This document shows, piece by piece, positions 3,597-28,256 of a stretch of 64,000 nt of DNA (the stretch's first letter is position 1; each line of letters begins with the position of its first letter). This DNA is from Acidithiobacillus ferrooxidans ATCC 23270 (lineage in GTDB: Bacteria; Pseudomonadota; Gammaproteobacteria; Acidithiobacillales; Acidithiobacillaceae), in NCBI RefSeq assembly GCF_000021485.1, contig NC_011761.1:2138001-2202000 (forward strand), in the 5' to 3' direction. Below the pieces are notes generated by a model that did not search any database, was not told the origin of the DNA, and saw nothing but the letters and a program-made list of their open reading frames with translations. The translations under genes and the position numbers were made by a program.

Positions 3597-5722
3597 TACG
3601 CCCAGCCAGCGTAGCCCGCCCTTTTGGGGGTAAAGCTGCTTGAGCATGTTTGGAATGCAGAACTCAGTATGTTTTCTTTTGTAACTGGGCCTGCCCTTTC
3701 TCTGCTGCGAGAGGAAGTGAGCCGAAGCGGCGGTGACTTGCCGACACTGGCAAGGTGACGAAGTCCGTGGGAAACGGGGCTTGCGGCGAAGCGGTTACGC
3801 CAAGATGAGCTTCTAGGCTGAGCATGGGACGGTTGAGGAACACGAACCTGTTTACACGCATCTGAGGGTTGAAATGTCACCACTGCCTACACCGCTTATG
3901 AGGCAGGGCGTGGGCTGTCGCTGGGCACAAGTATGGCTCAGCGATGCGAATGCTGGCTGGACATGTAAGCCGGACAGCACGGAACCACGGGGAGCGCGCA
4001 GCTAGACCGTGGTGCCCGCGACGACTTGCGGCAAGCAAGGATAAAGACTGCGACAGGCAACCTCGCCCATGCGTTGAGTCCGGCATGTGAACTGGGGAAG
4101 GTCTGTACAGATGCCAAGGGAGTAGGTCCCCGATGCTGTGCAGATTGGCGGAGCCCCTGTAGTAGTCCGAGATCGGGAAAGCCGGTCACATGGCGAAGGG
4201 GGGCAGTTGAAGTGGTTTGCTGGGTGGATTAACTGATCATAGTGAGGTGAAGACCTTTGATAATCAGTGAAATGCAAAGCAAACTGGCGACATGGTCGAC
4301 GGAGAACAAAGAGCGCAAGTTCAATCGACTCCTGAGACTGATTGCTGGCCAGGATTGGCTGAGTGAAGCGGCTCGCATTACGCTGGCCTCCAGCGGAGCC
4401 CGCACGCCGGGTGTGGATGGGGTCGATAAGCGCATGATGGAGCGGAATCTGTTAACGAACAATAGAGTTTCATCCCGGATAAAGTATCATCCTGGAGTGC
4501 GGCAAAAATGGGGCAGTAAGCATGCAACAAACGAATAATCAACGGCGTGAGTTATTATCAGGGTGGCACTTTATTGTTCTGCGCCCCGTCAGTGGCGCGT
4601 TTAGCGGGCAACTCAGGATGATACTTGCCCCGCTAGGCCGCCAAAGCGGCGAAGCATAATCAATAAGTTGCGTGCGAATCAGGATGATACTTTATTGTCC
4701 GTGAACAGAATCTCCAGCAGGAGCTGACGGCGATACGCGAAGAGCTGATGATGGGCACCTATAGCCCGCTACCGGCACGGCGCGTATATATCCCCAAAGC
4801 AAACGGCAAGCTCAGACCGCTCGGCATCCCGAGTCTCAGGGATCGCATCGTGCAACGGGCCATGCTGATGGCGATGGAGCCGATCTGGGAGAGCGACTTC
4901 CACCCGGCGTCATATGGCTTCAGACCAGCCCGAAGCGTACACCACGCGATCCGTACGGTGAAGCTGCAATTACAGGACGGTGATGAACAGAGTACCGCCG
5001 GACGGTGGGTCATTGAAGGTGACCTCTCCAGCTACTTCGACACAGTTCACCACCGTTTGCTAATGAGTGGAATCCGCAAACGGATTGCCGATCAGCGCTT
5101 CCTTGCCCTGCTCTGGAAGTTCATCAAAGCAGGTTGCGTTGATCGCGGTTTATTTCGTGCTGCCAGTGAAGGTGTTCCGCAAGGCGGTGTCATCTCACCG
5201 CTATTATCCAACATCATGCTGCATGAATTCGATGCGTGGATGGAAGCGAACTATCTGAACAAGAAGGTGCGGAAGGACCGGTGGGCGTGGAACTTCGGCA
5301 TTCTCAAGCAACGGCCCATCGCTGCGAGAGAGAACCGGCAGTGGAAACCAGCAGTCTCCTACTGTCGGTATGCAGATGACTTTGTCATCGTGGTCAAGGG
5401 AACTCGAGCACATGCCGAAACCATACGTGAGGCATGCCGGGAATTCCTCGAAGGCGGATTGAAGCTCACGCTGAATATGGAAAAGACCCATATAACGCAT
5501 GTGAACGATGGTTTCGTCTTTCTTGGCCACCGAATTATCCGCAAGCGCGGACCACGCGGCCGCATGCGGCCTGTGACGACCATTCCGTGGGAGAAGTATC
5601 GGGGTTTTGCCGCGCGGTTAACCAAACAACTGTCGGGCAATTACAGCATGAACCGGATGGATCTAGTGGAAAGCCTGAATCGGCAACTTGTCGGTTGGGC
5701 TGCCTTTTACCAATATACCGTA
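3597..5722 (+). mobile_element. Group II intron, 3'-truncated, carrying a second insertion
   Basis: A group II intron sits in the IS3 integrase gene. Its 5' end is taken as GTACGCCCAGCC at about 3597, close to the GTGYG start usual for these introns. About 660 bases without a long reading frame (3597-4256) have the GC-rich, hairpin-rich look of ribozyme domains I-III. They are followed by an intron-encoded reverse transcriptase. The 3' side (end of the RT, domains V and VI) is missing because another IS begins near 5722. Exact intron borders need folding against a model. Confidence 0.7.
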
Positions 5723-5731
5723 AACGTTTAG
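4257..5731 (+). pseudogene. ltrA: Group II intron reverse transcriptase/maturase, split and truncated
   Basis: This is an LtrA-type reverse transcriptase. The first 64 residues (4257-4449; an ATG at 4272 is also possible) include A-R-T-P-G-V-D-G-V-D. The frame is then interrupted by a 258-bp insertion and continues at 4713 with [11 protein letters not shown]. Removing the insertion and one 5-bp duplication restores one continuous frame. Palm motifs are clear: [15 protein letters not shown] and catalytic Y-A-D-D (about 5370). The maturase domain begins ([15 protein letters not shown]) but stops within a few codons, so most of domain X and any endonuclease domain are gone. Confidence 0.85.
4450..4707. 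mobile_element. Tn7-like mini-element (MITE) with TnsB-type site arrays
   Basis: The insertion has 5'-TGT/ACA-3' ends and is flanked by GAATC on both sides (4445-4449 and 4708-4712), a 5-bp target duplication as in Tn7. Its two ends are near-identical inverted copies: TGTTAACGAACAATAGAG and, reverse-complemented, TGTTCACGGACAATAAAG. Five copies of an ACAATAAAGTWTCATCCTG-like motif are visible. Two overlap at the left end (from 4459 and about 4476). Three are spaced at the right end, in inverted orientation (4559-4577, about 4614-4632, 4680-4698). This overlapping/spaced asymmetry mirrors the Tn7 right and left ends. It carries no gene and must have been mobilised by a transposase elsewhere. 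Confidence 0.85.
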
Positions 5732-6156: not shown

Positions 6157-7401
6157 ATGATGGAAGTACTTATCAAGCGCCCCACTACGTTGGCGCGTTA
6201 TCTGGGGGCTCCGCTCGCAGAAGAGAGGGATAATTTTCTCAAACACTGTGCGCAGGTAGGTTACTCGCCCTCCATGCTCAAGAAGATTTCTTGGGTGATC
6301 TGGGCTGTCGCAGAGTACATTGGCATTGATCATGGCAAGGTGACTATGCAAGACATTAGGATTGCTGTAGATCACCGGACGCGCTTTAAACGCCAATCAA
6401 CCCAGACCAAGGAATCGAAGAGCACTCGCCAGATGTTTATCCATTTCGCGACGGAATGGGCGCGACATATGGGTTGTCTTGGACAAGCTGCGAAACCTCA
6501 GGATAGTTTCGCGGTACAAATAGGGATTTTTGCTCGCCACATGCGCGAAGAACGGGGACTATCTCCCGTGACTATTGCAACCCGTTGTGAACGGCTTGGC
6601 TGGTTTTTCGCCGGATTAAATCCGCCACGAGGCACGCTGGATGCAATCACCATTTGCGATCTCGATGCCTTCGTCGAACTGAAGGGCCAACAAGGCTGGA
6701 CGCGCGCCTCACTGGGCTCATTGGCCAGCTCCTTACGCAGCTTTTTTGCTTTTGCTGAAGCTCGCGGCTGGTGTGCCAAAGGGTTAACGGCGACCATTGA
6801 ATCGCCGCGACTATATACCCGCGAGGGAATCCCGGAGGGCCCGGGTTGGGAAGATGTACAGCGTCTCTTGGTCAGTACTGCTGGCGATCATCCTGTAGAT
6901 ATTCGCGATCGCGCCATTTTGATGTTGCTGGCATTGTACGGATTGCGCCGTGGCGAGGTCGCAGCACTTCAACTCGAGCATTTGGATTGGGACGGGGATA
7001 AAATTTGCGTGGTACGACCTAAACAGCGCATCGCTCAGCGTTATCCCTTACTGCCCAGTGTGGGCGAAGCCATTGTGCGCTATCTGCGCGATGTACGTCC
7101 TCAGTGTGAACATCGGGCGTTATTCCTCACGATCGGTGCCCCCATGCGCCCACTTTCGGCGGAGAGTATCTCGCATGTCGCCCGCGCACGCTTAAACCAG
7201 CTTGGTCTCACGCTCTCTCCTCGCGGGGCGCACTGCCTGCGTCACGCCTGTGCCAGTCATCTCCTCTCTTCGGGTTTTTCACTAAAGCAAATTGGTGATC
7301 ACCTTGGTCATCGCAACGCCAATTCGGCGCTGAGCTATACCAAGGTTGATCTGACGGGGTTGCGACAGGTCGCCGAATTCGACTTGGGGGGTTTACTGTG
7401 A
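6157..7401 (+). CDS. ritA: RIT recombinase A, tyrosine site-specific recombinase
   Basis: This 414-residue tyrosine recombinase is the first of three. It has an N-terminal SAM-like core-binding domain and a C-terminal catalytic domain. Visible catalytic motifs are Arg in Y-G-L-R-R-G-E-V, H-C-L-R-H-A-C in the second box, L-G-H-R-N, and the nucleophile Tyr in S-A-L-S-Y-T-K-V-D. Its stop overlaps the GTG start of the next gene in GTGA, indicating coupled translation. The start is the ATG at 6157 (or 6160). RitA, RitB and RitC proteins are presumed to act together in transposing the element, but the mechanism is poorly known. Confidence 0.85.
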   Translation: MMEVLIKRPTTLARYLGAPLAEERDNFLKHCAQVGYSPSMLKKISWVIWAVAEYIGIDHGKVTMQDIRIAVDHRTRFKRQSTQTKESKSTRQMFIHFATEWARHMGCLGQAAKPQDSFAVQIGIFARHMREERGLSPVTIATRCERLGWFFAGLNPPRGTLDAITICDLDAFVELKGQQGWTRASLGSLASSLRSFFAFAEARGWCAKGLTATIESPRLYTREGIPEGPGWEDVQRLLVSTAGDHPVDIRDRAILMLLALYGLRRGEVAALQLEHLDWDGDKICVVRPKQRIAQRYPLLPSVGEAIVRYLRDVRPQCEHRALFLTIGAPMRPLSAESISHVARARLNQLGLTLSPRGAHCLRHACASHLLSSGFSLKQIGDHLGHRNANSALSYTKVDLTGLRQVAEFDLGGLL

Positions 7402-8339
7402 ACCTCTCAGAACTGATTTCTCTCTACATCGCCCATAAACGTGCGCTCGGATATCGGTTTCTAACAGAGGACCACTTGTTGAGATCTTTTTGCCGGGCAG
7501 TCGGTGATAGGCCAATAGAAACTATCGGTGCAGACGCCGTATCTATTTTTTTAAATGGCAAGGGGTCCGTTACGGCCTACTGGTACAAGAAATATCATGT
7601 GTTAACCGGATGTTACCGATTCGCATTGGCACGCGGGATGGTCACTGCAATCCCGCTGCCTCGCAGTGTACCAAAGCAGGACGGGCCCATATTTGTGCCT
7701 TATATTTATTCCCACGCAGAGTTGAAAAGACTGATTGATGTCCTTCCCGCTCTTTGCGCCGGACGCTCCAGAATCGACGATTACGTCTTCAAAGCCCTTC
7801 TGTTACTGATGTATGGTGCAGGACTTAGAATCAGTGAAGCGCTATCGCTCCATATCCATGACGTCGACCTGCAACAGACCATTCTATATGTTCGCGAGAC
7901 GAAGTTTTACAAGACCCGCATAGTCCCATTAGGCAAGGATTTAACCCAAATTCTGAATGAATATATCGCCAAACGGAATAACCGCTACTCAGCAGCTACA
8001 GATGCGCCGTTCTTCTGCTTCCGTGACGGCACACCACTGAGTAGATCCGCCGCCCATGGTCTGTTTCGGCGCGTACGCGCTAAAGCTGACGTCCTCAAAG
8101 AGGGTGGCCCGAGGCATCAGCCACGCCTTCACGATCTTCGCCACTCAGCCGCTGTGCATCGCCTTATTGCCTGGTATCGCTGCGGTGCAGATTTGCGCGA
8201 TTTGTTGCCCAAGTTGGCAACCTATCTTGGGCACGTCGATCTTTCGGCAACACAACGTTATTTGACCATGACACCAGAGTTACTTCACGAGGCGAGCCTG
8301 CGCTTCGCACACTATGCATTGGAGAAAGACCATGACTGA
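7398..8339 (+). CDS. ritB: RIT recombinase B, tyrosine site-specific recombinase
   Basis: This is the middle recombinase of the trio, 313 residues. It starts with GTG at 7398, overlapping the stop of RitA by four bases. Motifs: Arg in Y-G-A-G-L-R-I-S-E-A-L, the second box L-H-D-L-R-H-S-A-A-V, L-G-H-V-D-L, and nucleophile Tyr in A-T-Q-R-Y-L-T. The spacing between HxLR and LGH is longer than usual (a W-Y-R-C-G-A-D-L-R-D insertion), typical of this recombinase subgroup. Its end overlaps RitC. Confidence 0.85.
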   Translation: MNLSELISLYIAHKRALGYRFLTEDHLLRSFCRAVGDRPIETIGADAVSIFLNGKGSVTAYWYKKYHVLTGCYRFALARGMVTAIPLPRSVPKQDGPIFVPYIYSHAELKRLIDVLPALCAGRSRIDDYVFKALLLLMYGAGLRISEALSLHIHDVDLQQTILYVRETKFYKTRIVPLGKDLTQILNEYIAKRNNRYSAATDAPFFCFRDGTPLSRSAAHGLFRRVRAKADVLKEGGPRHQPRLHDLRHSAAVHRLIAWYRCGADLRDLLPKLATYLGHVDLSATQRYLTMTPELLHEASLRFAHYALEKDHD

Positions 8340-9330
8340 CGTGACCCTGCTTGGCCCCTGGATACGGCGATTTCTACTGGAGTATCTGGTACGAGAGCGC
8401 AATCTTTCGATAAATACCCAGCGCAGCTATCGAGATATGCTGTCCCTTTTTCTGCCCCACGTGAGTAAACAACTCAACAAATCCGTGGACCGATTAACGG
8501 TATCTGATCTGTCGGCAGACCTTATCCGTCAATTCCTTAGTGATATTGAGGAAAGCCGCCACTGTCTCGCCGCCACCCGCAATCAGCGCCTCGGCGGCCT
8601 GCACGCGTTGGCTCGATTCATTGGTGAAAATAGTCCTGAGCATATCGAGTGGTGTTCACAAATCCGGCTGATTCCTTTTAAAAAAACGGCATATCCAGGC
8701 ATTACCTATCTCGAAAAGCCAGAAATGGACGCCCTTTTAGAATCTCCAGATCGCCAGACCCCTCAAGGCCAACGTGATTACGCCTTATTACTGTTTCTCT
8801 ACAACACTGGGGCGCGTGCCAGTGAAGCTGCCGATCTCAGGATCGTTGATGTGGATTGGCATGCTCAATGCGCCCACATTATCGGCAAAGGTAACAAGCG
8901 GCGTACCTGTCCATTGTGGCCGACCACTCTGGATCAATTGCGTGCGCTAGCAACGCAACGTGGGTTGGATCAACGAGTTTTTTTAAATCGCAACGGCCAA
9001 CCCATCACACGCTTTGGTATCCATACGATGGTCGAACGACATGCTGCTAGGGCTTGTGTGCAAGTGCCATCAATGAGTACGAAGCAGGTCAGTCCACATG
9101 TGATCCGCCACAGCACGGCAACCCACCTTTTACGTGCTGGCGTGGACATCAATACCGTCCGAGCCTGGCTGGGACACGTTTCGCTCACTACGACCAACAT
9201 CTACGCTGAGACTGACCTCGAGACTAAAACTCGTGCGTTGGCGACATGTGCTCCGCCCACAGCAGAGGGGATGGCAACGAAACATTGGCGTCAGCAGCCG
9301 GACCTGATGGCCTTCCTCCACGGCTTATAG
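8332..9330 (+). CDS. ritC: RIT recombinase C, tyrosine site-specific recombinase
   Basis: This is the third recombinase of the trio. The ATG at 8332 overlaps the RitB stop by 8 bases; an in-frame ATG at 8314 is also possible. It is XerC/D-like, with N-terminal core-binding helices (N-L-S-I-N-T-Q-R-S-Y), Arg in T-G-A-R-A-S-E-A, box II S-P-H-V-I-R-H-S-T-A-T-H-L-L, L-G-H-V-S-L and nucleophile Tyr in T-N-I-Y-A-E-T-D. The complete set of catalytic residues argues for an active protein. It is followed by 64 bases without a gene, then the right inverted repeat. Confidence 0.85.
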   Translation: MTDVTLLGPWIRRFLLEYLVRERNLSINTQRSYRDMLSLFLPHVSKQLNKSVDRLTVSDLSADLIRQFLSDIEESRHCLAATRNQRLGGLHALARFIGENSPEHIEWCSQIRLIPFKKTAYPGITYLEKPEMDALLESPDRQTPQGQRDYALLLFLYNTGARASEAADLRIVDVDWHAQCAHIIGKGNKRRTCPLWPTTLDQLRALATQRGLDQRVFLNRNGQPITRFGIHTMVERHAARACVQVPSMSTKQVSPHVIRHSTATHLLRAGVDINTVRAWLGHVSLTTTNIYAETDLETKTRALATCAPPTAEGMATKHWRQQPDLMAFLHGL

Positions 9331-9426: not shown

Positions 9427-10268
9427 GGACTATAAGGCAGTGTCGTCTGATGCAGCACCCCCAGCAGGGCCAGTCCGTTGGTGGTTTCCTCGGCCACCAT
9501 GGCGGCGCCATTGTCGGTCATCAGCGCCCGTGGCAGGCCGCGCTTCATAAAGGCCTGGCAGAGGCCGTGGATGAGGCTCTCGGCGGTTTCGTCCAGATAC
9601 CATTGCAGGTGGCAGAGCAGCCGCGAGTGATCGTCGATGATCCCCAGCAGCATGGGTGTCTCCCAGGCGCCAGCACGGGTCAGCACCTGGCGGGAGCCAT
9701 GGTGGAAATCCAGATGCCAGAGGGCGGCGGTATGTTCTACCTCATAGCTGCGCACTTCCAGGCGTTCCAGACGATCACGGGCGGCGATAGCGCCGGCGGT
9801 GGCGCGTTTCGGTCGCGACTGCCGGAACAGGCCCTGTGCCTGGAGATAGCGGCGGATCGTCGGGTAGGACGGAAGCGTCACATCCTGCCCCTGCAGGGCA
9901 GCCTTCAGATTGTCGTAGTGCAACTGGGCTGTCCAGCCCGGATGCTCCCGATATTGGATGGTCAGCGTCTCGATCGCCAGCGGCGTCAGACTCGGGAACT
10001 GGCCGACGTTACTGCGTAACCGGTTGCGCAGGGGGAGGACCGGATTCTCTGCCGCGCGTACCCGGTAATACCAGCGCTCCAGGGTGGAGAATCCAAACTG
10101 GACCGGTTCCCCGGTGAGCGGATGGCGCCAGATCCGGGCGGCCAGCGCCTCCAGTGCCGGAGCGAGTTCTCCCGGAGCGGGTGGTGCCGCCAGCAAGGGG
10201 CCAATGATCGCAAAGCGCAATAGCGCCCAGCGATCCCGTTGGGGGGAGTCGATACGGGTCTTCATCAT
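9422..10268 (-). pseudogene. DDE integrase-type transposase, 5' part, split by RIT element
   Basis: This is the first 280 or so codons of an integrase-core (rve, IS481-like) transposase on the minus strand. The catalytic domain shows the first Asp in W-H-L-D-F-H-H-G and the second in M-T-D-N-G-A-A-M. Translation then runs T-L-P-Y-S-P-Y into the RIT inverted repeat. The missing end, including the catalytic Glu, is at 5755-5987. It lies 130 bases downstream of the DUF6431-like gene and the two are taken as one IS. Rejoined, the protein would be about 360 residues. Confidence 0.85.
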
Positions 10269-23716: not shown

Positions 23717-23998
23717 ATGAGATTCACCTGGAACGACAAAAAGCGGCAAACCAACCTGCGCGATCATCGCGTGGACTTTGCCGATGCCGTCGGGGTCTTT
23801 TTTGATGACTGCGCCCTGACCACGGAGGATGTGGATGCCGAAGGTGAGCAGCGTCTGGTGACGATGGGGCGGGACTTCTTGGATCGAGTACTGATCGTGG
23901 TGTACACCGAGCGCGGTGGAGATGAAATACGCCTCATATCCGCCCGTAAAGCCAGCCCAGGAGAACGCAAAGCATATGCAGGAGGTGCGAACCCATGA
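23717..23998 (+). CDS. brnT: BrnT family ribonuclease toxin
   Basis: This 93-residue protein has the BrnT fold. It begins F-T-W-N-D-K-K-R-Q-T-N-L-R-D-H-R-V-D-F, the typical F-x-W-D-x-x-K-x-x-x-N-x-x-K-H start. It ends R-L-I-S-A-R-K-A-S-P-G-E-R, the conserved I-S-A-R-x-A-x-x-x-E box. BrnT cleaves RNA and is neutralised by BrnA. The antitoxin gene overlaps its stop by four bases (ATGA). The upstream DNA contains TTTGACGG (about 23633) and TGTACACTTGTGCA, possible promoter and operator elements for autoregulation. Confidence 0.9.
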   Translation: MRFTWNDKKRQTNLRDHRVDFADAVGVFFDDCALTTEDVDAEGEQRLVTMGRDFLDRVLIVVYTERGGDEIRLISARKASPGERKAYAGGANP

Positions 23999-24237
23999 AA
24001 GCAGAGTATGATTTCAGCCAGGCCCGGCGGGGTGCCGTCGCCGTAGAGCAGGGAAAGACCCGCGTGACCATCCGCTTGGATAACGACGTGTTGGACTGGT
24101 ACAGAAAGCAGGCGCAAGAACATGGCGGCAATTATCAGACCGCGATCAACGCCGCCTTACGGGAACAGATGACCGCGCAGGATGGGGCACTAGAACGAGT
24201 GCTACGAAGGGTTATCCGTAAAGAAATGCTGGTATGA
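23995..24237 (+). CDS. brnA: BrnA family antitoxin
   Basis: This 80-residue partner of BrnT has an N-terminal toxin-binding segment followed by a ribbon-helix-helix DNA-binding domain (K-T-R-V-T-I-R-L-D-N-D-V-L-D-W-Y-R). The C-terminal helix reads Y-Q-T-A-I-N-A-A-L-R. It binds and blocks the toxin and, by analogy with the family, represses the operon. The ATG at 23995 overlaps the brnT stop, so translation is coupled. Both genes appear intact. Confidence 0.88.
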   Translation: MKAEYDFSQARRGAVAVEQGKTRVTIRLDNDVLDWYRKQAQEHGGNYQTAINAALREQMTAQDGALERVLRRVIRKEMLV

Positions 24238-24429
24238 TCGTAATGTCTCAAAATAGCCCTCAACCGGCAGGCGGAGAACCCCGCAAAACAGGGCCATCCG
24301 CCCAGCGGGGATCAGCGCCCATCAGACAGAAGGATGCATTCTGTCTCATCTACAACCGACAGGAAAATCATCGCATGATATATGGCATATCTCCTTGTTA
24401 CATGGCACCGACAGTGCCGTCGAATTTAC

Positions 24430-24436
24430 GTTAGAT
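24430..24436 (+). other. Integron cassette core site (GTTAGAT), R' of cassette 1
   Basis: GTTAGAT fits the GTTRRRY recombination core. It is the exact reverse complement of ATCTAAC at 25204-25210, the other arm expected for the attC of the same cassette after excision. It lies 9 bases before the start codon of the AlbA_2 gene. Confidence 0.6.
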
Positions 24437-24444
24437 TTTTCATC

Positions 24445-25203
24445 ATGGCACTCACAAAAAAACAGCACGAAGCATTTGCCAAATTCTTTGAAAGCCCAAC
24501 ACGGAGCGCTCTTAGAGATTTGCTCAAAGGCAACATTGGCGAGACAGACTACCTAGATTTCAAGGAGACATGGCCTGAGCCAGTGAAGCTGGCAAAGCAC
24601 ATATTGGCTATGGCAAATAGCGGTGGGGGAGCAATTGTTGTCGGCGTAAAGCAATCCGAGGATAACGCCGTCGAAGCTATAGGACTTGAGAAATTGGAGG
24701 ACAAATCAGACATAAGTAAAAAGATTGCCTCCTACCTTCCTAGCGAGATCGCTCTGGAAATCCTCGATTTCACTTACACCGAATCTGAATATGAAAAGAT
24801 ACGAGGAAAGTCATTTCAGGTTATGCTAGTTGAATACAACCCAAAAATTGTTCCTCTGCTACCGAAGAAGGAAGGGGATGGAATAAGACGAAATGCCGTT
24901 TATATCAGAAAGGGCACTAACACGGAGGAGGCCAACTATGAAGACTTACAGGAGCTAATTAACAAGCGCCTGGAAACTGGATACTCGACCCAAAAGAGCT
25001 TCGAACTTTACAAACACTTGGATCAACTAAAAGTTCTAGATATAAATCAGCCAAGGAACAAGTCAAGGAAAGGCCGATTTTTCGGGGACATGCGAACTTT
25101 GGGGGATATATTTGGCCCACACAACAGTTTAGAGTACGACAAGTTTTTAGAGGGGCTGTATGAGAAAAAGAAAAAAATCATCGAGCGCGAAATTGGGTTG
25201 TAA
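24445..25203 (+). CDS. AlbA_2 (Schlafen-like) putative nucleic-acid-binding protein
   Basis: This protein of about 252 residues carries an AlbA_2/Schlafen-type domain: E-T-D-Y-L-D-F-K-E-T-W-P, then K-L-A-K-H-I-L-A-M-A-N-S-G-G-G-A-I-V-V-G-V, the conserved AN-x-x-GG-x-hhhGV core. Later comes R-R-N-A-V-Y-I-R-K-G-T-N-T, matching the family Y-x-R-x-G-x-x-T. Such domains occur in nucleases, RNA-binding regulators and phage-defence proteins. The C-terminal 80 residues are not recognised. ATG 24445 is chosen over upstream starts because the domain and the cassette core site fit. It is AT-rich and bounded by cassette-type sites, so probably acquired through an integron. Confidence 0.75.
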   Translation: MALTKKQHEAFAKFFESPTRSALRDLLKGNIGETDYLDFKETWPEPVKLAKHILAMANSGGGAIVVGVKQSEDNAVEAIGLEKLEDKSDISKKIASYLPSEIALEILDFTYTESEYEKIRGKSFQVMLVEYNPKIVPLLPKKEGDGIRRNAVYIRKGTNTEEANYEDLQELINKRLETGYSTQKSFELYKHLDQLKVLDINQPRNKSRKGRFFGDMRTLGDIFGPHNSLEYDKFLEGLYEKKKKIIEREIGL

Positions 25204-25281
25204 ATCTAACATGGCGCTCAACTTCGGTCGCTGGGCGCTGCGCGATAAAGCCGCGCAGCGCCAGTTAGCTCTACGTTATAT
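25204..25281 (+). other. attC-like integron recombination site
   Basis: The region has attC architecture. ATCTAAC (R'', 25204-25210) is followed by GCTCAAC (L''). A perfect 11-bp stem comes next, GGCGCTGCGCG at 25234-25244 with its complement at 25252-25262. GTTAGCT (L', from 25264) and ACGTTATAT (R' of the next cassette, core at 25275-25281) complete it. It begins overlapping the stop codon of the AlbA_2 gene, as cassette sites often do. Confidence 0.65.
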
Positions 25282-25293
25282 CGGTATCCAATA

Positions 25294-26091
25294 ATGACGC
25301 TTTGCAAAATCTCCCAGAAGAAAGCCTCTTGGATTTGGTCCACACTCCGAAATGCACGTCGGTATAACTCAAAGATTGGTGAAGAGTCCATTACGGATTT
25401 CTTTGTTCTTGAGTTGAAGAAGGCCTCGAAGGGGGCGTACTTTATCGACTCATTTACCCGCCCAAAGGAAAAGATCACGGGTGCAGATTGGGAGCTTTGG
25501 TTCACAGGGCCAACGAAAAAATGGATTGGTCTTCGCGTGCAGGCGAAAGTCATTTCGATCAACGGAAAGCGATATGCCCAATTACACTACAAGAGAAAAG
25601 ATGGTACTTACCAAATTGATCAATTGGTAGCCGATGCAAAGAAACATAAAGCCATCCCTCTTTACTGCCTGTATTCCTATTGGCGCAGTACGGAAGCCGG
25701 CAAGATCAATTGGCCATGTGTGACGATAAAGCGAAATTCGAGACTATTTGGTGCCAGCATTTTATCCATCAGCAGCGTGAAAAAACTGAAGTCCTCGAAA
25801 GACGACACGCTCAAAAGTGTGGCAAAAAACATCAATCCGTTGCATTGTCTTTTTTGCTGCCAGGGCTACGCCCAAGGTGATCTTCCAACCCGTGCGTATG
25901 CATTCCTAAGAGCAAGAGACTATCTCGACATAGATGCCCAGTTGCTGCTCGACGATCCGCCTGAATATGTAACTAAGATGCTTGATAGCTTATCCGGAGA
26001 AAGTCTAATTTGGGCCAAAGACGAAAATCTTTCTAGAGTAACGATCATCCGAGAGGAATTAGAGGGTCCCATTGTCATTTCAAGTAGGTAG
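25294..26091 (+). CDS. DUF6615 family protein, possible nuclease
   Basis: This 265-residue protein resembles DUF6615: E-E-S-I-T-D-F-F-V-L-E-L near residue 30, F-T-R-P-K-E-K-I-T-G-A-D-W-E-L-W-F at about 55-70 and G-L-R-V-Q-A-K-V-I at about 80. The D-W-E ... Q-A-K pattern with alternating strands is reminiscent of PD-(D/E)xK restriction-like nucleases; this catalytic assignment is inference. Two C-x-x-C-like Cys pairs occur later (L-H-C-L-F-C-C-Q-G). The gene follows an attC-like site by 12 bases and is the second cassette. Its own attC is not visible. It is AT-rich. Confidence 0.65.
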   Translation: MTLCKISQKKASWIWSTLRNARRYNSKIGEESITDFFVLELKKASKGAYFIDSFTRPKEKITGADWELWFTGPTKKWIGLRVQAKVISINGKRYAQLHYKRKDGTYQIDQLVADAKKHKAIPLYCLYSYWRSTEAGKINWPCVTIKRNSRLFGASILSISSVKKLKSSKDDTLKSVAKNINPLHCLFCCQGYAQGDLPTRAYAFLRARDYLDIDAQLLLDDPPEYVTKMLDSLSGESLIWAKDENLSRVTIIREELEGPIVISSR

Positions 26092-26124
26092 GCTGATATC
26101 CAGATTGCCACAGATCAGATAAGC

Positions 26125-26171
26125 CATGTTTTGGTCCCTTCAAACCCCTTTTTTGAAGGGACCAAAACATG
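26125..26171. terminator. Strong bidirectional hairpin (20-bp perfect stem)
   Basis: CATGTTTTGGTCCCTTCAAA at 26125-26144 pairs perfectly with 26152-26171 around a 7-base loop. It lies 34 bases after the DUF6615 stop. It is too long and too perfect for a simple terminator and could be a terminator, a recombination site or a relic of an element end. Confidence 0.5.
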
Positions 26172-26216
26172 TTAATCTGACATAATCAAAAATGGGTACA
26201 GAAGCGAGTCGTTTAC

Positions 26217-26762: not shown

Positions 26763-28256
26763 TTAGTACCCCGGCGTATCGCCGCGTCCCTGCCCCGTCA
26801 TGATAAGCCGCTGTTCCGCCAACGCCTTCCGAAAACTCGCCATCGAGGAGGCCGATTCAACGGCTCTCAAGGTTTTGCCGCGATTCATAGACGCATTTTC
26901 GATACCCAGTATATGGCCCACATGGGTGCCGATGGTTTCCAGTCTCAGCTTGAGCTTTCGGTTTTCATCCAGCACCGAAGCATAGTTATCCAGCCGTTGT
27001 TCGCGTGTTTTCAAGGCGGCATCCCATTCCAGTAAACTGCTTTCCTTGTGCTGGACCTGGGCTTCCCGCTCTTTCACGTTCTCCTCACGCCTGGTCACGT
27101 TTTCATGGGCTTCCCGGATGGCGTTCCGCCCCATTTGCACCGCTTTGTCCCGAATATATTCGGCTACCTGTGCGTGGTAAGCATCCACGGCCTCCTGGGA
27201 TAGAATCCTGTTTCTGGTCATCGGGATGATCTTCCCCTCCAGCACGGGCATGGCATCCCGCACCTGTGCCGTGACGGCTTTTTTCTGCTGGCTCTGGGCA
27301 TCCAGCAGCGCCACCTCCTGCCGTTTTTTCGCAATGCCAGCATCCAGTTTTTCAAGGGCTTCACGATTGGCCGCAATGTCAACATCAAGCTTGTTTTTTT
27401 CATCATCAAGCTGACGCTGTTTTTCCTCCGCATCCTCTGCACGTTTTTTGTAAACTTCCAAGCGTTTTTTAACTTTTTCTTCATCGCCTTTCTTTTGCTC
27501 AAGATCAATTTGCGCTTGTTCAGCCAAACGGATATTTTTTAAGTACCGATCCAACGCTTCCTCTGCTTCAATTTCAATTTGCTTGCGCCGTTCCTCAACC
27601 TTGGCAATGTCGGCAGGAAGCGTTTCATGAAGCTGCTTTACTGATCGATGTATCCAGTTAGCGGGTTCTTCACCGTCTGCGATTCTCTTTTTTTTGCTCT
27701 TGCCTCTGGTGATACCCAAGTCGGACACTTCATTCCCGGCCACATCCTGCAACATCCGCAGATCAACGGCAGCCAAATTCATGGGGATTTCATGGCCCGT
27801 CTCTTGGTCATGCTTATAGCTTCTCAACATAAAATGAGCATGCGGTGCGGATTCATCACGATGCACAACCAGACTAATCAATTCACGATCGGCCAGCTTT
27901 GCAGTGCGTTCTGCGATCTTACGGAAAACTGCATTTTGTTTCTCTGGCGTCATGTCATTAATGATGGATTGCGCTTCTGTTCCAAATGTCACAATGCCAG
28001 AAAGCGCCAATCTTCCATCCTTGCGGAACCCACGCTGCTTCGCTTTTTTTCGATGCCGGATGATTTCTTGCTGGAGATGATCCGCAGATGGGCCTGCTAT
28101 CAAAATGGAATTTTTATCGCTTCTATCTTTGTCCACGTACTTAGGAATGCGCTTTGCGTCGCGCATGTCATGCTGCTGCTGGCCGCCATAGGTCACACTA
28201 TTCAAATGCTCCAGTCGCACACTAATCGTCATCGTCATGGTTCTATCCTCATGCAT
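26763..28256 (-). CDS. mobV: MobV-family relaxase (Pre/Mob)
   Basis: This 497-residue mobilisation relaxase nicks the origin of transfer of a plasmid or mobilisable element. The metal-binding motif H-R-D-E-S-A-P-H-A-H is at residues 132-141, the diagnostic HxDE...PHxH of the MobV family. The N-terminal motif V-R-L-E-H-L-N-S-V lies at about 13-21. Residues 225-470 are a long coiled coil rich in Glu, Lys and Arg, as in other MobV tails. The start is ATG 28256 or an internal Met at 7 or 9. No partner Mob gene or replication gene is near, so this is a piece of an integrated mobilisable plasmid. Confidence 0.88.
   Translation of the reverse strand: MHEDRTMTMTISVRLEHLNSVTYGGQQQHDMRDAKRIPKYVDKDRSDKNSILIAGPSADHLQQEIIRHRKKAKQRGFRKDGRLALSGIVTFGTEAQSIINDMTPEKQNAVFRKIAERTAKLADRELISLVVHRDESAPHAHFMLRSYKHDQETGHEIPMNLAAVDLRMLQDVAGNEVSDLGITRGKSKKKRIADGEEPANWIHRSVKQLHETLPADIAKVEERRKQIEIEAEEALDRYLKNIRLAEQAQIDLEQKKGDEEKVKKRLEVYKKRAEDAEEKQRQLDDEKNKLDVDIAANREALEKLDAGIAKKRQEVALLDAQSQQKKAVTAQVRDAMPVLEGKIIPMTRNRILSQEAVDAYHAQVAEYIRDKAVQMGRNAIREAHENVTRREENVKEREAQVQHKESSLLEWDAALKTREQRLDNYASVLDENRKLKLRLETIGTHVGHILGIENASMNRGKTLRAVESASSMASFRKALAEQRLIMTGQGRGDTPGY

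Follow-up and report, generated by a model that had tools for sequence, protein, structure and literature searches.

The window analysed here, a 64-kb stretch of a 2,982,397-bp Acidithiobacillus ferrooxidans chromosome (G000:C1:2138001-2202000), very probably contains an integron that lacks its integrase. This would comprise an attI site (24324-24434), a complete cassette carrying an AlbA_2 gene and a second cassette with a DUF6615 gene, truncated by an insertion sequence (IS). The cassette itself is of a known kind; what is new is the dispersed attI family joined to toxin-antitoxin (TA)-type modules. An earlier note, made from the sequence alone, had described an integron-type cassette carrying an AlbA_2 gene, which is borne out by the attC score, the fold and the match to PF04326.

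The AlbA_2 cassette, its attC site and the truncated neighbour

Covariance model, fold and blastn all identify 25204-25281 (+) as a genuine integron attC. It consists of R'' (25204-25210), L'' (25216-25222; GCTCAAC, with one extrahelical base), L' (25264-25269; GTTAGC) and R' (25275-25281), with spacers of 5 nt on both sides and a perfect 11-bp central stem (25234-25244/25252-25262), the L boxes and stem lying where the earlier note had placed them. That note had also paired GTTAGAT (24430-24436), just before the gene, with ATCTAAC (25204-25210), just after it, as R' and R'' of one attC. The two are exact reverse complements and form the R box once the cassette is excised as a circle; while it is integrated, R' is GTTATAT (25275-25281), which pairs with R'' at six of seven positions.

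Covariance model R1, in which the R and L boxes are paired, was trained on 19 attC sites, all of other loci: one belongs to a class 1 integron and the others come from Acidithiobacillus and further genomes, and the window's own site was deliberately excluded. Under this model the site predicted by the earlier note scores 39.9 bits (E = 1.7e-6 in 380 kb, 1.3e-5 genome-wide), against a peak of about 15 bits for unrelated sequence. Untrained attC sites are recovered as well, such as that of blaOXA-21 at 51.7 bits. No second attC was found in the 64-kb window, where no other R1 score exceeded 15 bits. A strict structural scan returned no attC-like sites in 315 kb of shuffled sequence; in a looser one chance matches do occur. 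The bottom strand adopts the canonical attC fold, with R, L, central stem and extrahelical base (z = -3.9), and the top strand folds differently and not as a canonical attC. By blastn, the site matches the attC of the blaOXA-21 cassette (E = 8e-8, 88% identity over 49 nt). An Rfam search of the window gave no match.

The AlbA_2 gene and this attC make up one cassette (24431-25275), which begins in the core GTTAGAT (24430-24436, +) at the recombination point G24430/T24431. The gene (24445-25203, +; 252 aa) has its ATG 15 nt past the start of the first core and a stop codon that abuts R'', and lies between two cores in the orientation of the attC. It was described earlier as AT-rich and promoterless, and both properties hold: its GC content is 45% vs 56% for the window, and no promoter stands above those in shuffled sequences. 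The SLFN/AlbA_2 domain matches PF04326 with 54 bits (cut-off 25), and the protein has a weak match in PADLOC to the candidate family PDC-S50 (30 bits); searches of NCBIfam and of sequences of solved structures gave no match for either the AlbA_2 or the DUF6615 protein. The AlbA_2 protein would act on nucleic acid, probably in an anti-phage role. Its nearest relative, 64.5% identical, is encoded without an attC on a Synechococcus elongatus plasmid. No relatives at E <= 1e-30 were detected among 398 sampled genomes of the phylum, the own genome apart, and no close relatives were found as cassettes elsewhere.

The second cassette begins at 25276. Its DUF6615 gene (25294-26091, +) covers only positions 1-210 of the 289 in the PF20320 profile, and its last codons are supplied by an IS remnant. 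That remnant, recognisable from 26064 on, corresponds to the end of an ISL3-family (ISTfe1-like) element (26064-26130, -; 81-84% to the ends of ISL3-type transposase genes in relatives), including what is in relatives the transposase C-terminus on the opposite strand; the family name is taken from one annotated copy. Given that Pfam coverage stops at 210 of 289 and that the ISL3 match starts at 26064, this cassette has been truncated, with loss of its attC. A gene for DUF6615 also occurs inside a type I restriction cluster of a Vibrio plasmid, a setting that fits a defence role, short of proof. At the junction past the IS remnant lies an inverted repeat (CATGTTTTGGTCCCTTCAAA / TTTGAAGGGACCAAAACATG; 26095-26180) for which IS homology does not account. 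Further on, a gene for a MobV/Pre-type relaxase (26763-28256, -) hints that a mobilisable element is integrated downstream of the cassettes.

The attI-like leader and its family

The first core is preceded by an attI-like leader of 111 bp (24324-24434, +), which contains two direct repeats 20 bp apart (near 24375 and 24395) and ends in the GTTAG of the core. The same 111-bp leader is present in A. marinus, A. ferruginosus and other family members, each time reaching GTTRG and then giving way to unrelated sequence. R2, a sequence model built from seven leader copies, gives the window's leader 97 bits and finds the family at 49 places in 19 of 31 genomes of the order. The family form is ATGTTAnnCnGCA, followed 20 bp on by ATGTTACrCwGCA and, after about 35 bp, by ACGTTRG. 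The consensus of the short leader copies aligns with attI1 so well that only one of 5000 shuffles is equally good, and of six single long copies five resemble attI1 at p <= 0.022. The window's own leader, in which the first direct repeat is degenerate, resembles attI1 weakly (p = 0.12); the attI assignment is carried by the direct repeats and simple site of the family form and by the intI remnants that adjoin it.

Such remnants lie directly beside the core of short leader copies at four loci. In three of them (L155, L163 and L144) the piece is N-terminal and divergent from attI, and in the fourth (L164) it is a middle piece. This is the canonical integron layout in decay. The core of the family would accordingly be the attI of an integron lineage, from which copies appear to have dispersed through Acidithiobacillaceae, intI surviving beside them as decayed fragments where it is still found. 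Across about 28 examined leader loci, eight have a same-strand attC downstream within 1.6 kb, against a chance expectation roughly estimated at 0.1. For many leaders, no attC could be detected over several kb. The present genome has two further copies, at 446,814 and at 2,947,053 (the latter truncated ahead of its core), with an attC downstream at 447,284 and 2,948,686, respectively. Another lone attC of the genome (41.8 bits; locus L151, 4372-4438, G000:C1:792871-792937) has no leader nearby by R2.

No intact intI paired with a leader-type attI was found in the genomes sampled, a partial sample. The leader shows neither a blast nor an R2 match to the attI of the intact integrases of the genus, which differs from it, and a homology between the two was rejected. 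That the leader might be the attC belonging to a TA cassette ahead of it was likewise rejected, as it lacks a conserved R'' (RYYYAAC) and gives no R1 score. Its motif was not detected in viral contigs, and blast searches in 369 sampled genomes of the class, few of them close relatives, returned only the own genome. In locus L085 (G012), inverted leader copies (8466-8537 and 9950-10056) flank a two-cassette array; the right copy breaks off at a direct repeat and runs on as GTTAGGC, as though the repeat's own GTTA had recombined.

Toxin-antitoxin flanks, integrases and a possible exchange of cassettes

At the window locus the normal place of intI is taken by the toxin gene brnT (23717-23998, +; PF04365, 90 bits), followed by the antitoxin gene brnA (23995-24237, +; PF14384, 52 bits). 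Between the TA gene and the leader lies repeat A, of about 115 bp (24235-24349), with conserved ends TCATCGTAATGTCTC ... GAGACAGAATGATGCATTCTGTCT and variable sequence to its right; the dyad that terminates it overlaps the left end of the leader. It is dispersed behind TA-type genes on chromosomes and plasmids of Acidithiobacillaceae. As an attC it was rejected, having no R1 score; it is possibly a recombination site or a MITE that moves TA modules. The long leader copies mostly lie downstream of TA-type genes that are all oriented towards the cassette: BrnTA (G000, G003), ParE-like (G011, G016, G025), MazF-like (G004, G011), DUF2442-like (G000) and PIN-domain-like (G000), where names other than BrnT and BrnA are our reading of ORFs and not Pfam results. 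A few long copies follow non-TA genes.

No integron integrase was detected above background in the 64-kb window, in agreement with the earlier note. The sole true intI-like sequence of the genome is a remnant at about 432.5-433.1 kb, 1.7 Mb from the locus, which lacks most of its C-terminal part and retains a different attI of its own (86% to the one in G012) and several attC. The genome holds attC arrays and an intI remnant, and intact intI is kept in several sister species of Acidithiobacillus. Because the genome yielded no functional intI, the cassette should be immobile unless an IntI acts on it in trans. A RIT-type trio, made up of tyrosine recombinase genes in direct succession, occupies 6157-9330 of the window; hits of the intI model show three copies of it in the genome, and RIT elements of Acidithiobacillus ferrooxidans have been described (PMC3414803). 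The window also contains a group II intron reverse transcriptase/maturase (4748-5731; just above the curated cut-off, from profile position 46), with no intron RNA detected nearby by Rfam, and an AT-rich ORF of 614 aa (641-2485) with no match in Pfam, NCBIfam or PADLOC.

Comparison of flanks relates the leader to its cargo. The window and species G003 have 706 bp in common (84.8% identity), from the brnT-brnA region through repeat A to the leader. This similarity ends inside the core, at 24436, beyond which G003 carries a different gene, one that matches type IV restriction enzymes (PADLOC mREase_IV). Similarly, G016 and G011 have the end of a ParE-like gene and the leader in common (313 bp, 81.5%), up to the core, and differ in cargo. 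In sequence terms, homology that stops at the core with other cargo behind it is what cassette exchange at attI would predict. Orthologues with the same flanks in lineages without integrons would have refuted the earlier note; the left flank in fact has other cassettes elsewhere, in a lineage rich in integrons.

We infer that an integron integrase acted here in the past, either in cis before its loss or in trans. It would have recombined the folded bottom-strand attC of a circular cassette with attI at its GTT core, the exchange falling between G24430 and T24431, with older cassettes displaced from attI by later insertions. Expression of the AlbA_2 cassette would rely on read-through transcription, plausibly from the co-directional TA operon.

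A refinement of this explanation, to which we give a little less than an even chance, is that attI had already been separated from intI when the cassette was inserted, through an integrase whose gene lay elsewhere; the dispersed orphan attI sites would then be extra cassette ports of one trans-acting system. In the opposite history, the cassette arrived in a cis integron whose intI was lost later. Exchange after the loss, and hence IntI in trans, is favoured because the common flank already has TA genes in the place of intI: both the BrnTA-leader (G000, G003) and the ParE-leader (G011, G016) flanks were intI-less in the common ancestor and now bear cassettes that differ, with the homology breaking off in the core. 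The presence of several leaders in a genome, mostly lacking intI remnants, and of intact IntI in sister species points the same way. On the other side, the attI belonging to the intact IntIs of the genus is a different one, and homologous recombination between dispersed leaders, a possible alternative to cassette exchange, could pair old flanks with other cassettes. Overall, the evidence favours an exchange of cassettes at attI sites no longer coupled to intI. A wider proposal, which we put forward tentatively, is a multi-port integron: dispersed attI ports uncoupled from intI, several per genome and mostly joined to TA modules, would be filled by IntI in trans. It is likewise a tentative part of this proposal that the cassettes filling them differ and are often of defence type. 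The TA modules replacing intI may serve to keep the port stable as well as to provide it with a promoter.

Integrons are commonly pictured as a single intI with a single adjoining attI. Here, the attI sites seem to have dispersed on their own, without intI, and yet to have swapped cassettes, which bears on how single cassettes come to be scattered through genomes. The locus lends itself as a natural test of two things, the working of attI in trans and the ability of a TA operon to replace a lost cassette promoter.

Alternatively, the leader could belong to a mobile module made of a TA gene and repeat A and merely serve cassettes as a preferred secondary site, as the position of the long leader behind TA-type genes and its start in the dyad ending repeat A would allow. 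We regard this as improbable: the leader core (its last 65 bp) is found where repeat A is missing and where intI fragments adjoin it in the divergent arrangement canonical for integrons, and the alignment of its consensus with attI1, given above, speaks against this reading too. There is similarly little to commend an attG insertion, in which the cassette would have entered a non-integron site with a fortuitous GTT core. Such insertions are documented (PMC12901181 and PMC12444791, citing Loot et al. 2024), and the locus resembles them in being a single cassette far from an integron, among others scattered in the genome. However, attG is a loosely defined genomic site, neither attI nor attC, whereas the target here belongs to a conserved family with attI-like repeats that is followed by varied cassettes and, in some copies, adjoined by intI remnants. 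Chance palindromes flanking an ordinary gene are by far the least credible reading, since, common as short inverted repeats, GTT cores and loose-scan matches are, the held-out R1 score, the OXA-21 attC homology and the many related attC in the genus oppose it, and the R1 scores effectively refute it.

Relation to known integrons

The literature searched, with partial coverage, yielded no description of attC-bearing integrons in Acidithiobacillus and no use of the term 'orphan attI'; annotated integron integrases are mentioned once, for strain IO-2C (PMC6736930). The attC of the blaOXA-2/OXA-21 cassette of class 1 integrons is 88% identical to the window's over 49 nt, but the gene is unrelated and the locus has no class 1 platform. 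A complete sedentary chromosomal integron likewise has cassettes of uniform orientation behind attI, each gene just past a core and each attC just past its gene; it differs from the present locus, which has no intI, one complete cassette and several such ports per genome.

The locus had earlier been called a CALIN-like array without an integrase. The cassette and the missing integrase agree with this; the array does not, since CALIN (PMC12444791) comprises at least two attC without intI, and only one survives here, the ISL3 remnant having cut the second cassette. In IntegronFinder terms the locus is therefore a SALIN, a single attC without intI (PMC12690207). Both kinds of leftover are mobilisable in trans by a functional IntI (PMC12444791, PMC12690207), and they resemble the locus in having cassettes with attC and no adjoining intI. 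Yet they are defined by attC alone, whereas here the cassette abuts a recognisable attI of the dispersed type, joined to a TA module, which makes the locus an integron, attI and cassettes together, without its integrase.
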